DNA of 53,800 nt from Gammaproteobacteria bacterium (GTDB taxonomy: Bacteria > Pseudomonadota > Gammaproteobacteria > Pseudomonadales > Azotimanducaceae), in assembly GCA_026707045.1 (NCBI GenBank), contig JAPOXO010000099.1:1-53800 (forward strand). Direction: 5' to 3'. Of the stretch, positions 8,840 to 13,059 are shown one piece after another. Within the stretch, counting starts at the first letter, position 1, and each line of letters opens with the position of its first letter. Below the pieces are notes generated by a model, which saw only the letters and a list, made by a program, of their open reading frames with translations, was not told the DNA's origin and did no database searches. The translations under genes were made by a program, and so were the position numbers.

Positions 8840-9843
8840 AGACATACGACATCTACGGGATTGGCAATGCGTTGTTGGATTCCGAATACGCGGTGTCCGA
8901 CTCTTTCTTGGTTCAACACAGCATCGACAAGGGAAGAATGACCCTCATTGATCGCGATCGACGGGCTACTTTGCTCGGTGCGGTGGCCCACCAAGAGCCC
9001 AACAGTGTTGGTGCCGGTGGTTCGGCGGCAAACTCCACATACGCAGCACAAGGATTCGGTTGTCAAAACTACTTTGCGGGAGTCGTTCGCAACGATGCAG
9101 TCGGTCTGACGTTCTCACGAGAACTTTCAAATGCTGGAATAGACTCGCTGGCCGCAACCGAGAAAGCTGCACCTCATTCAGGGCAGTGCATCATCTTTGT
9201 TACCGAAGATGGACAAAGAAGCATGAACACCTATCTCGGAATATCCGAGACGCTAGATGAGCATCACGTTGAGGAGCATGTTGTTGCGTGCTCCAGCTGG
9301 GCCTATATAGAAGGATACTTGGTGAGTTCAAGTACCGGATGTGCTGCCGCAAGGAGAACTCGGGAGATTGCCGTTCAGAACGGCGCAAAAACCAGTCTGA
9401 CTCTAGCAGACGTATCGATCGTTCGGGCTTTTCGGGAAGCTATGAATGAAGTAATTGGTGATGCGTTGGATTTGGTGTTCTGCAACATTGAAGAAGCTTT
9501 GGAATGGTGTGAGACGGACCGACTGGACACAGCGGCGAAACGCATACTCGATATTGCTCGTTATGCGGTTATCACCGTCTCCGAGAAAGGCTGTTACTTG
9601 ACGGGTTCCGATGGAGTCACTTATGTAGCTGGATTTCCGGTGCAACCAGTCGATAGCAATGGTGCCGGCGACATGTTCGCAGGTGCATTCCTCGCCGCCT
9701 TGCAACAAGGCTCTTCAATGGAGCAAGCAGCGCGATTCGCAAATTACGCAGCGTCACACGTGGTTCAAATATATGGACCTCGACTACCGTCCTTCGGGAA
9801 GTACTCCTCAATTGCAAGGTCTTTCAGTCAAACTGGAACATGA
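8836..9843 (+). CDS. PfkB-family carbohydrate/nucleoside kinase, probable adenosine kinase
   Basis: A 335-residue ribokinase-fold kinase. The N-terminal VYGIGNAL-type strand (here DIYGIGNALLDSEY) and the GAGGSAANSTYAAQGFG segment form the substrate site. The C-terminal DSNGAGDMFAGAF holds the anion hole and catalytic Asp typical of PfkB enzymes. Full-length similarity to proteins usually labelled adenosine kinase in proteobacteria supports phosphorylation of adenosine to AMP, but the substrate cannot be settled from sequence; a sugar or other nucleoside is possible. The start ATG overlaps the hemL stop (ATGA). Its 3' end overlaps the convergent sfsA by 16 bases. Confidence 0.85.
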   Translation: MKTYDIYGIGNALLDSEYAVSDSFLVQHSIDKGRMTLIDRDRRATLLGAVAHQEPNSVGAGGSAANSTYAAQGFGCQNYFAGVVRNDAVGLTFSRELSNAGIDSLAATEKAAPHSGQCIIFVTEDGQRSMNTYLGISETLDEHHVEEHVVACSSWAYIEGYLVSSSTGCAAARRTREIAVQNGAKTSLTLADVSIVRAFREAMNEVIGDALDLVFCNIEEALEWCETDRLDTAAKRILDIARYAVITVSEKGCYLTGSDGVTYVAGFPVQPVDSNGAGDMFAGAFLAALQQGSSMEQAARFANYAASHVVQIYGPRLPSFGKYSSIARSFSQTGT

Positions 9844-10520
9844 AAGGGAATTTGCTTGTCAAGAGCCAATGCCGTCGGGCTAACTGACCAACGATAGGCA
9901 AGAATCTCAACTCTGTCAGCTACGGCTTCCCTGACTGCTCGTCCATAACTGGGATCGATGTCCTCTGCTATAGTGATTTGGTCTACTCCTGAGTGTGGCA
10001 CGCAGAAGAACAAAATCGCTCGAATTCCGTTTTTTGCGCAATTTTTAAGCGCATTCAAGTGTCTGGTAGCCCTAATGCTCTCTGCATCGGGAAATACTCC
10101 CATACCGCGTCGTAACCACGAAACCATCTTGACTTCCATCACAACGTTCTCCGAGCCAAAGTCGAATCGGCCGCGCTCTCCTGGAATTGGGACTTCTCGT
10201 GACCATACCGATTGCTTAGCAAGTTCCGGAATCTCATTGGACAATAACGCCTCTTGAACCAGCTGATTGGCACGAGCAGTATTTACGCAGACGCGAAAGC
10301 CCTGTTTAGTCTCTACGAACTCAAGCGAATGCGGCAACTTTCGTTTGGGATTAGTACTGGTAGAATACCAAGCCTTGGATCCCGGGTCTGCACATCCGTG
10401 CATTGCACCAGTATTGGCGCAGTGCATCGTCAAAGTTTCGTTTTCAGTCAGAACATCCGCGAAGAACCGCTTGTAACGTCGCAGAAGAATCCCTTCCTTC
10501 AGCTTCGGATTGAATTTCAC
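9828..10520 (-). CDS. sfsA: SfsA family DNA-binding/sugar fermentation stimulation protein
   Basis: The 230-residue product matches E. coli SfsA (234) throughout: LLRRYKRFFADVL, LTMHCANTGAMHGCADPG, WYSTSTNPKRKLPHSLEF, CVNTARANQLVQEAL, a nuclease-like core with RGRFDFG and VMEVKMVSW, and RAILFFCVPHSG. SfsA was described as a DNA-binding regulator of sugar metabolism in E. coli; its real biochemical role is unclear and the fold resembles nucleases. The frame is open to a TTG at 10559, but the GTG at 10520 (VKFNPKL aligned with E. coli MEFSPPL) matches the family start and is preferred. It is divergent from dksA, the same pairing of neighbours as in E. coli. Confidence 0.92.
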   Translation of the reverse strand: MKFNPKLKEGILLRRYKRFFADVLTENETLTMHCANTGAMHGCADPGSKAWYSTSTNPKRKLPHSLEFVETKQGFRVCVNTARANQLVQEALLSNEIPELAKQSVWSREVPIPGERGRFDFGSENVVMEVKMVSWLRRGMGVFPDAESIRATRHLNALKNCAKNGIRAILFFCVPHSGVDQITIAEDIDPSYGRAVREAVADRVEILAYRWSVSPTALALDKQIPFHVPV

Positions 10521-10623
10521 TGCATGATCAACTACTAAATTGCGTGTCCAAGCTAGCAATCGGCGGAGATTTTTGGTATGTTTGCACGATTCTCAATCAG
10601 GAGCTCTGCTCTAAATTCTTCAA

Positions 10624-12171
10624 ATGACATTGCCAGCAGATACACAGAATACTTCCAATGAAACAGGAACTCGGTCCACCAACAAAAGAGCCACTCCCCA
10701 GCTGAAGGCAAAGGCAACCATGTCGTCTACCAAGGGAGCAGCGGCATCCGGACGTTCCAAAACGGTCGCCATGGCAGCCAAAAACCCGGGCAAGTCTGTG
10801 AGTTCAAAGAAAGTGAAAACAGGCCCGAAGCCGAAACCCAAAAAGTCCAAAAAAGCCCTCTCAGCTGTGGAGAAGACTAAAGCATCGCCAAAGGCAAAAA
10901 AGCAAAAGGCCCAGCCGAATAAGACATCCTCTGCGAAAACTTCAAAATCAGCGCCGAAGAGAGCACCGGCAAAAAAACAAGCTTCCAAAGTCGCTAAATC
11001 GAAGACCTCAGCCAAGACACGTAAAGCTCCAGCAAGACGTCGTCCAACCGCTCGAACCGTGGTCGCTGCAATCGATAGAGCCTTTAATGCACTGGAAATT
11101 CTCAAAGAGTATGTGCTAATTTCCGAGGAGGAAGCAACGGTTGTAAGGTCGTCGTCCAAGACTCCCACGAAGAAAGCAATGGCGAAGAAGCCTGCAGCAA
11201 AGACCGCTGCCAAGAAGTCGACTTCTGATCCAAGGAAAAAGACTTCAGATTCGACAAAATCAAGTCGAGCGGCAAAAAGTACCGCCAAAAAAACAGCCGC
11301 TCCTAAACATGCAAAAAGAACAACGGGCCAGAAGACTCCTGCGAAGAAGGTCGCGCCAAGGCCTTCTCAGAAACGAGCAACCAAGAAATCGCCGACAGCG
11401 GCTAAAGCAGCCAAATCCAAGGCAGGTGCGACAAAAACTAGCTCGAAACGTGCGTCGAAGCCCAAATCCAAAGCTTCTACATCAAAAACGAAGACAAAGC
11501 AAAGTTCCAAAGCTAAGTCGACAACCACTTCAAGCAGGTCAAAATCCAAATCAAGTAGATCGAAAAAAGCGGCAGACGATCCCGGCTCTATAGAGCCGAC
11601 TAGGTCGGCCCTTCAAGTACGTCAAACGGAAAAAATAAGCAAACTGGCCGCGATTTCTTCAGCGAGCGCGCGTAAGGCGGGCGCGGCGACCCGGCTCAGA
11701 ACGGCAAAGGCGGAACCACCCGCCCTCAGTCCCGCTGCTGCTACCACTGGATTCTTAAGAAATCTGGGAATAAAGCCATATTCGCCTCGCGCAAATGAGC
11801 CTTACATGGCCAAGAATCAACACGGCCACTTTCATGAAATCCTCATTCGCTGGCGAGACAAACTCATGGAAGACGTAGACCGCACCGTCAACAACATGCA
11901 AGGTGAAGTGTCTAATCTGCCCGACCCGGTCGACCAGGGTACCAACGAGGGAATCTTTGAAGGCGAATTACGCACAAGGGACAGGGAACGCCAGCTGATC
12001 AACAAAATTGCGCAAGCTCTTGAGAAGCTGGAAACCGAGGACTACGGTTACTGCGACGACTGCGGCATTGAAATCGGTTTACGTCGATTGGAAGCCAGAC
12101 CTATCGCGACAAAGTGTGTAGATTGCAAAGAACGCGACGAAGTTCGCGAGAAGCAGCAACGTGGCGGTTAA
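10624..12171 (+). CDS. dksA: DksA transcription factor fused to a long histone-H1-like N-terminal domain
   Basis: DksA binds the secondary channel of RNA polymerase and, with ppGpp, resets promoters such as rRNA promoters. Residues 376-515 are a complete DksA (E. coli 151 residues): a start GFLRNLGIKPY, a coiled coil with tip DPVD (434-437), and a four-cysteine zinc finger C477, C480, C498, C501, ending REKQQRGG. Before it lie about 375 extra residues. Residues 1-140 and 176-318 are low-complexity Lys/Ala/Ser/Thr/Pro repeats like eukaryotic H1 tails and bacterial AlgP or Hc1-type proteins. A predicted helical segment (141-174, TVVAAIDRAFNALEILKEYV) lies between them, and 319-375 is a linker. 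The frame is open without interruption. The ATG at 10624 is the first start after an in-frame stop; its ribosome site is weak. Position next to gluQ and sfsA confirms DksA. Confidence 0.93.
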   Translation: MTLPADTQNTSNETGTRSTNKRATPQLKAKATMSSTKGAAASGRSKTVAMAAKNPGKSVSSKKVKTGPKPKPKKSKKALSAVEKTKASPKAKKQKAQPNKTSSAKTSKSAPKRAPAKKQASKVAKSKTSAKTRKAPARRRPTARTVVAAIDRAFNALEILKEYVLISEEEATVVRSSSKTPTKKAMAKKPAAKTAAKKSTSDPRKKTSDSTKSSRAAKSTAKKTAAPKHAKRTTGQKTPAKKVAPRPSQKRATKKSPTAAKAAKSKAGATKTSSKRASKPKSKASTSKTKTKQSSKAKSTTTSSRSKSKSSRSKKAADDPGSIEPTRSALQVRQTEKISKLAAISSASARKAGAATRLRTAKAEPPALSPAAATTGFLRNLGIKPYSPRANEPYMAKNQHGHFHEILIRWRDKLMEDVDRTVNNMQGEVSNLPDPVDQGTNEGIFEGELRTRDRERQLINKIAQALEKLETEDYGYCDDCGIEIGLRRLEARPIATKCVDCKERDEVREKQQRGG

Positions 12172-12180
12172 GTCAGAAAC

Positions 12181-13059
12181 ATCTCTCAGCAAAACTATGT
12201 AGGGCGTTTCGCCCCAACAAACTCAGGGGCTCTGCATCTGGGATCGCTACTGGTCGCAGTTGCAGGATTCCTTGATGCTCGCTCCCAGGAGGGTCGCTGG
12301 CTCCTGAGAATTGATGACCTCGATACTCCTCGCGTAAGCCAGGATGCCGAACGAGAAATTTTGACTTCACTCGAATGTCACGGATTGTATTGGGATGGAG
12401 AGCCAGTTCACCAGCAAGAACATCTTGCGCTCTACGAACAAGCGCTCAACGAACTTGTCCTTAAAGACTGCACCTTCCCATGCACGTGCAGACGCAAAGA
12501 CATTGACCGAACGGTAGGCTGTGTTAGAAACTGCTGCTCTGTGACGACTGAACCTCAGCAACCCCATTCAATCCGGATGCGGCTTTCTCTTCATGACATT
12601 GAGGTCCACGATGAAATTCAAGGCACGATGCACGGTCGCGAATGGTCCACAATAGAGAATATTGCCATCTGGCGGCGAGAGGGAATCCCAACCTATCCGC
12701 TCGCAGTAGTCGTCGACGACAATATCATGGGTATAACCCATATCATTCGTGGATCCGACCTTGCCGCAAACACAGTGCAACAGTTGTCCTTGCTGGCTGA
12801 GCTAGGTTGGAAGCGGCCGAGATATGCGCATATTCCCGTTCTAAATGATCGAAGCGGAGAGAAGCTGTCAAAGCGAGATGAAGCAACGACCATAGATAAA
12901 AGACATGCACGACAAAATGTAATCTGGTCAATGCAGCTTCTTGGAATGGATCCACCTCAACGAATGACGCTCGATGATCTACTCAACTGGGGAATCGAAC
13001 ACTGGTCACGATACCGAATTCCCTCAGAACCGAGTCTCTCAAGTTTCGTGAGTGCCTAG
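12181..13059 (+). CDS. gluQ: Glutamyl-Q tRNA(Asp) synthetase with apparent AUC start
   Basis: Truncated GluRS paralogue that attaches glutamate to queuosine in the anticodon of tRNA-Asp. It has the class I core YVGRFAPTNSGALHLGS (HIGH-like), LLRIDDLDTPR, the KMSKS-like KLSKR, and no anticodon-binding domain. The zinc site reads C-T-C then C-x3-C; the third ligand is Tyr in E. coli. No in-frame ATG, GTG or TTG exists between the dksA stop (12169-12171) and 12361, yet the active site lies in that interval. An ATC at 12181 falls exactly five residues before the conserved Tyr, where E. coli has its start Met, so I place the start there. Readthrough from dksA (same frame) or a sequence error are alternatives. 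The dksA-gluQ order is standard in this class. Confidence 0.85.
   Translation: MSQQNYVGRFAPTNSGALHLGSLLVAVAGFLDARSQEGRWLLRIDDLDTPRVSQDAEREILTSLECHGLYWDGEPVHQQEHLALYEQALNELVLKDCTFPCTCRRKDIDRTVGCVRNCCSVTTEPQQPHSIRMRLSLHDIEVHDEIQGTMHGREWSTIENIAIWRREGIPTYPLAVVVDDNIMGITHIIRGSDLAANTVQQLSLLAELGWKRPRYAHIPVLNDRSGEKLSKRDEATTIDKRHARQNVIWSMQLLGMDPPQRMTLDDLLNWGIEHWSRYRIPSEPSLSSFVSA

Follow-up and report, generated by a model that had tools for sequence, protein, structure and literature searches.

The window, i.e. the whole analysed stretch of 53,800 nucleotides, encodes a DksA protein in which a complete DksA domain is preceded, within one open reading frame, by a tail of 375 residues. This tail is positively charged and predicted to be disordered and, by analogy with CarD and AlgP, may well serve as a flexible nucleic-acid tether, likely keeping DksA together with RNA polymerase near the nucleoid (a probability of roughly 0.55). 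DksA has been known mainly through the 151-residue protein from Escherichia coli.

Gene organization and reading frame

The gene is a single frame with an ATG start and no internal stop. Its parts and neighbours are as follows:

10624..12171, plus strand: dksA with the long N-terminal extension, 515 codons (open reading frame, profile matches, alignment with E. coli DksA)
10624..11043, plus strand: first basic tail, residues 1–140 (composition; without predicted structure)
11044..11145, plus strand: helical island, residues 141–174 (AlphaFold2 helix 143–173; 68% identity to the relative G006 versus 54% for the whole tail)
11149..11577, plus strand: second basic tail, residues 176–318 (composition; without predicted structure)
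11614..11688, plus strand: second conserved block, residues 331–355, inside the linker 319–375 (88% identity to G006)
11749..12168, plus strand: DksA proper, residues 376–515 (profiles, E. coli alignment, AlphaFold2, fold match)
11923..11934, plus strand: coiled-coil tip DPVD with D434 and D437 (alignments)
12052..12126, plus strand: zinc finger with C477, C480, C498 and C501 (Pfam, alignment)
9828..10559, minus strand: sfsA, the upstream neighbour (Pfam SfsA; kept in 17/17 other genomes of the genus)
12172..13059, plus strand: gluQ-type gene (tRNA-synt_1c), the downstream neighbour, start codon uncertain (Pfam; adjoins dksA in 9/17 other genomes of the genus)

The original prediction of one open frame encoding both a basic extension and a complete DksA (residues 376–515) is borne out by the reading frame itself, the Pfam and TIGR02420 profiles and the E. 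coli alignment, and its layout of tail, helix, tail, linker and DksA agrees with the AlphaFold2 model—helix 143–173, unstructured flanks and a DksA fold. The same single frame is present in the relatives G006 and G014 (592 and 639 codons from ATG, with DksA parts 96% and 88% identical to that of the window), so that misassembly or a frameshift is an unlikely source of the fusion. The alternative that the tail is a separate gene joined here by a frameshift was rejected for the genus: no such arrangement occurs in any of the 17 other genomes, tail and DksA sharing one frame in 18/18.

Concerning an internal start of DksA, the window frame contains no in-frame ATG, GTG or TTG between codons 187 and 394, and in both the window and G006 the 120 codons preceding the methionine of the domain are free of them. 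A start at codon 395, in front of which no Shine-Dalgarno-like stretch was seen by eye, would remove residues 376–394, corresponding in the alignment to residues 13–31 of E. coli DksA; an internal start is therefore unlikely in these two genes. Several relatives within the genus have possible start codons 2–92 codons ahead of the domain's methionine, and in those an internal start could be used. The weak point of the assigned start is the long Shine-Dalgarno spacing, the AGGAG at 10599–10603 lying 20 bases 5' of codon 1, and a promoter scan upstream of the gene gave no convincing candidate. In Xanthomonas euvesicatoria, DksA was found to have 256 rather than 147 residues, based on peptides and start-codon mutants (PMC5559785), which argues against an internal start in that genus.

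An antisense open reading frame (10620–11288, minus strand, 222 codons) overlies the tail; it was rejected as a gene and interpreted as a by-product of the Lys/Ala codons on the other strand, since the changes between relatives follow the plus frame. It resembles the antisense gene drawn over the extension of Xanthomonas dksA, the deletion of which the authors later proposed (PMC5559785).

The gene order at the locus is sfsA–dksA–gluQ. A kinase gene and sfsA precede dksA in 17/17 other genomes of the genus, so that the dksA genes of the genus are orthologues in one place; a foreign or mobile origin is unsupported, the GC content being also like that of the surroundings. It should be noted that gluQ lies in the same frame as dksA directly after its TAA (12169–12210 in the window), and that in the window, G006 and G014 no ATG, GTG or TTG is found ahead of its conserved YVGRFAPT. 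The fourth codon past the dksA stop is ATC, ATT and ATC, respectively, and a rare AUU/AUC-type start or a read-through of the stop is possible; in the two type C relatives (see below) examined, GTG or ATG directly precedes YVGR.

DksA domain

The two Pfam families of DksA both match above their cut-offs—DksA_N (PF21157) at residues 399–468 (4.3e-23) and zf-dskA_traR (PF01258) at 473–506 (1e-9)—and with E-values allowed up to 10 only DksA families were found, the CarD/CdnL domain not being among them. The protein scores above the cut-off of TIGR02420 dksA (137.6 versus 115.5 bits) and below that of PRK10778 (166 versus 289). Residues 376–514 align with residues 13–151 of E. coli DksA (E 3.1e-45). 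In the AlphaFold2 model this part has block means of 68–95, and the top matches of the fold search—1tjl, 5vsw and 7khi—superimpose at 1.9–2.6 Å with TM scores of 0.85–0.89 by target length and 52–54% identity.

All four zinc cysteines (C477, C480, C498 and C501) and both aspartates of the coiled-coil tip are kept in the alignments, D434 and D437 corresponding to D71 and D74 of E. coli DksA. L458, K461, R492 and K502, which match the ppGpp-site contacts, are likewise all kept. The DxxDxA motif is incomplete, reading DPVDQG with the final alanine replaced by glycine; within the genus, type A and type B share this glycine, and type C keeps alanine. The alanine has been called critical for TraR (PMC9239242). 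Despite the glycine, the window protein belongs to DksA by both profile and fold, and its domain should, judging from these conserved residues, work as in E. coli, i.e. in the secondary channel of RNA polymerase together with ppGpp. It is the only DksA-domain match at an E-value of 0.001 or better in its own draft genome (95% complete, 143 contigs), which also has two RelA/SpoT-type genes.

Composition and predicted structure of the tail

Residues 1–374 include 77 Lys, 24 Arg, 6 Asp and 10 Glu, giving a net charge of +85 in a segment rich in Lys, Ala, Ser, Thr and Pro. AlphaFold2 leaves residues 1–142 and 174–370 unstructured at low confidence (block means of about 42–56), with a single helix at 143–173 (74–86). 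The tail thus falls into the composition class of histone-H1/AlgP-like tails—long, predicted disordered Lys/Ala/Ser/Thr/Pro segments of high positive charge. Its earlier description as an H1/AlgP-type tail holds for composition and predicted disorder, but does not extend to the H1-like Pfam family HC2 (PF07382), the profile of which matches none of the tails of the window, G006, G014 and the database protein P0002. By analogy, the window tail would be predicted to work like HC2 although it is not filed as such. A query with the tail against its own genome found only itself among 37 candidates scored, in a search whose compositional correction hides such matches.

Tails within the genus

The genus set consisted of 18 genomes, i.e. 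that of the window and 17 others (L031–L047). Each has one DksA match with a basic tail of 193–498 residues and a net charge of +33 to +123, the lengths being measured from the frame's first ATG, which in L042 may lie too far upstream. The domain sequences define type A (window, G006 and G014; 88–100% identical), type B (G002, G004, G007, G008, G011 and G013; about 55% identity) and type C (G001, G005, G009, G015, G016 and G017; about 40–42% identity), with three odd genomes (G003, G010 and G012) outside them. The DksA domains at this one locus thus differ by up to about 60% within the genus, a divergence larger than expected and unusual for DksA.

In type B, R44, P51, N52, A56 and V60 are invariant in 20/20 aligned proteins, and most of the tail drifts. 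The poor type B model (mean pLDDT 47), with a helix at 53–69 at about 62–66, weakly suggests a helical island there too. A common origin of the islands of types A, B and C is unsupported (hhalign probability of about 1% or less); the islands were compared by eye and with hhalign because MAFFT alignment of whole type A tails had placed the helix of G014 out of register.

Spread beyond the genus

The fusion, at first seen as singular, proved not to be isolated; tails of graded length recur on gammaproteobacterial DksA at the levels of family, order and class as well as among database proteins. A DksA match was found in 115 of the 117 relatives searched. Among other genera of the family, a basic tail of at least 50 residues (80–280 residues) is present in 22 of 46 usable genomes, 7 of the 53 matched genomes having been left out for a gene cut by the contig end or as a divergent or distant relative. 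The corresponding value for other families of the order is 9/42 (50–325 residues), with 2 of 44 matched genomes left out. Presence or absence is concordant in all 16 genera of the family represented by two usable genomes (8 with and 8 without a tail), which none of 20,000 shuffles reached. A tail is missing from about half of the family and from most of the order and is hence dispensable for DksA as such.

At the class level, 349 of 369 genomes gave a match. The 150 best-scoring matches listed—not a random draw—include 61 in open frames of at least 230 codons, and in 54 of the 60 examined a basic tail 50 or more residues long starts at an ATG or GTG. Tails are thus present in at least 54 of the 150 listed, the other 89 having frames shorter than 230 codons. 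Of 68 database proteins of 283–901 residues with a DksA domain, 65 carry a Lys/Arg-rich extension by reading of the table. Named carriers among the matches listed are Alloalcanivorax xenomutans, Thiohalobacter sp. IOR34 and a Xanthomonadaceae metagenome-assembled genome; the Xanthomonadaceae DksA P0142 has a Lys/Ala tail. Two further protein searches covered the best 120 of about 8,000 matches each. The three exceptions among the 68 proteins are two Arg/Gly-rich proteins and P0060, a 318-residue protein with DksA_N, zf-dskA_traR and tRNA-synt_1c, i.e. an apparent DksA–GluQ fusion.

Judged from the sequences compared, DksA tails appear less singular but wider in occurrence than first thought. 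Their graded lengths suggest that a short Lys-rich N-terminus probably expanded in frame into the tail, the capture of a histone-like gene being the less likely origin.

Selection on the tail

The tail sequence changes far faster than the DksA domain, while the frame and—in five of six pairs—the charge are kept. The dN/dS of the tail is 0.17–0.56 (10 of 12 genus pairs with estimable dS) and that of the domain 0.06 or less where estimable in the same 12 pairs. In the window–G006 comparison the tail is saturated at synonymous sites (pS 0.76), and pN is 0.28 for the tail and 0.021 for the domain. The two tails are 54% identical overall, 88% at 331–355 and 68% in windows around 136–175 and likewise in a few others. 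The gap-free pairs L034–L038 and L041–L043 have higher tail values (0.48 and 0.56), so that the lower ones may partly stem from alignment by protein similarity.

These data bear on the explanation that the tail has no particular job, being a repeat of Lys/Ala codons of fluctuating length, tolerated since DksA can function without its N-terminus. The variation in length from 0 to 498 residues and the low sequence identity are in its favour; it is, however, improbable in view of the tail dN/dS below 1, the invariant residues of the type B island, the concordance of presence and absence within genera, and the retention of charge and low hydrophobicity beyond drift. The last was seen in simulations with the observed number of base changes for six pairs, some sharing members: the net charge of real tails exceeds neutral drift in 5/6 (P 0.018 or less; L034–L037 marginal, P 0.054), and fewer hydrophobic residues were gained than by drift in 6/6 (P 0.0045 or less).

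Proposed function

Nucleic-acid binding appears to be the best reading of the tail by analogy. The own genome encodes an HU-family protein (L198:1534-2091, G000:C2; PF00216, 57.6 bits), found with the HC2 profile at a score below the family cut-off, whose N-terminal Lys/Ala/Pro tail is much like AlgP; this fits nucleic-acid binding as the use of such tails here. The G006 genome also has an HC2-like match.

In the proposed tether, the tail would bind DNA without strong sequence preference and raise the local concentration of DksA at promoters, much as CarD is more active with its HMGA-like tail. A partner might dock on the two short conserved blocks, or these might serve in self-association, and the domain would act on RNA polymerase with ppGpp in the E. 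coli manner.

A serious rival, albeit one with rather low odds, is that the tail binds mainly polyphosphate, so that polyphosphate made in starvation would occupy the lysines and either move DksA from nucleoid to granules and back or act on it as a switch. A polyphosphate kinase gene is present in the own genome, and DksA is reportedly connected to polyphosphate in E. coli, judging by the title of a cited study. Lys-rich stretches bind polyphosphate, two Pseudomonas matches having nine Lys in 20 residues (PMC12077175), and AlgP associates with granules (PMC9239181). The window tail also has nine Lys in 20 at 62–81; its longest Lys run, however, is two, versus four in the published Pseudomonas matches (PMC12077175), and its mean is four Lys per 20.

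Less probable than polyphosphate binding is that RNA or ribosomes are the main targets of the tail, which would hold DksA at the sites of rRNA synthesis or in RNA-rich condensates. Polycationic disordered tails do bind RNA as well as DNA, and the best known targets of DksA are rRNA promoters; the precedents of CarD and AlgP, however, concern DNA (PMC4374960, PMC9239181). Least probable of all would be post-translational cleavage of the long product, releasing the tail as an H1-like peptide and leaving an ordinary DksA. A processed DksA form was also observed in Xanthomonas, from which it follows that the tail may be cut off, but that form may be a simple breakdown product (PMC5559785), and the conserved block 331–355 beside the domain contains no recognised protease motif.

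The nucleic-acid tether may, more broadly but only tentatively, and with odds somewhat below even, be extended to a large, undescribed gammaproteobacterial class of DksA proteins acting as chromatin-tethered stringent-response factors. Their H1-like tail, tunable in length, would hold DksA and RNA polymerase on the nucleoid and so link nucleoid packing, and perhaps polyphosphate, to the ppGpp response within one protein. The genus of the window, whose tails reach 498 residues and contain conserved segments for docking, would have gone furthest. Tailed DksAs are already known from sequence databases, often with HC2 marked, and an extension has been met in Xanthomonas (PMC5559785); in the open-access literature searched by DksA terms, mostly short of full text, no description of H1-like tails on DksA was found. 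If about a third of gammaproteobacterial DksAs are tailed—as at least 54 of the 150 listed matches would suggest—the standard picture of DksA, RNA polymerase and promoter covers only a part of the class. Annotations starting DksA at an inner codon, as in Xanthomonas (PMC5559785), can hide tails, and with a tailed DksA one could ask directly whether a histone-like tail can tune a general transcription regulator in bacteria.

Comparison with known systems

The E. coli DksA (1tjl, 5vsw and 7khi) shares with the window protein the fold and the domain with its tip aspartates and zinc cysteines, but has 151 residues, no tail and alanine in DxxDxA, where the window protein has a 375-residue tail and glycine. 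The X. euvesicatoria DksA has a long N-terminal extension, too, yet of only about 109 extra residues, and is likened here by length only (PMC5559785). The same order of parts—a basic low-complexity tail followed by DksA—is found in P0017 from A. xenomutans (354 residues) and P0071 from Thiohalobacter sp. IOR34 (229 residues). In comparison with both, the tail of the window is longer, less regular and richer in Ser/Thr, and it has the helical island; the P0071 tail, unlike that of the window, passes HC2 (54.6 versus a cut-off of 40 bits).

AlgP (AlgR3) from Pseudomonas aeruginosa, linked to polyphosphate granules, has a DNA-binding, disordered H1-like Lys/Ala/Pro domain resembling the window tail, but with regular KPAA repeats, at the C-terminus of a small helical domain and without DksA (PMC9239181). 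CarD from Myxococcus xanthus combines an RNA-polymerase-binding domain with a disordered basic tail that binds DNA and without which the protein is not fully active (PMC4374960). The window protein shares this plan as an analogy of architecture, CarD having its own unrelated folded domain, a C-terminal tail, an acidic segment and AT-hooks, and being confined to myxobacteria (PMC4374960).
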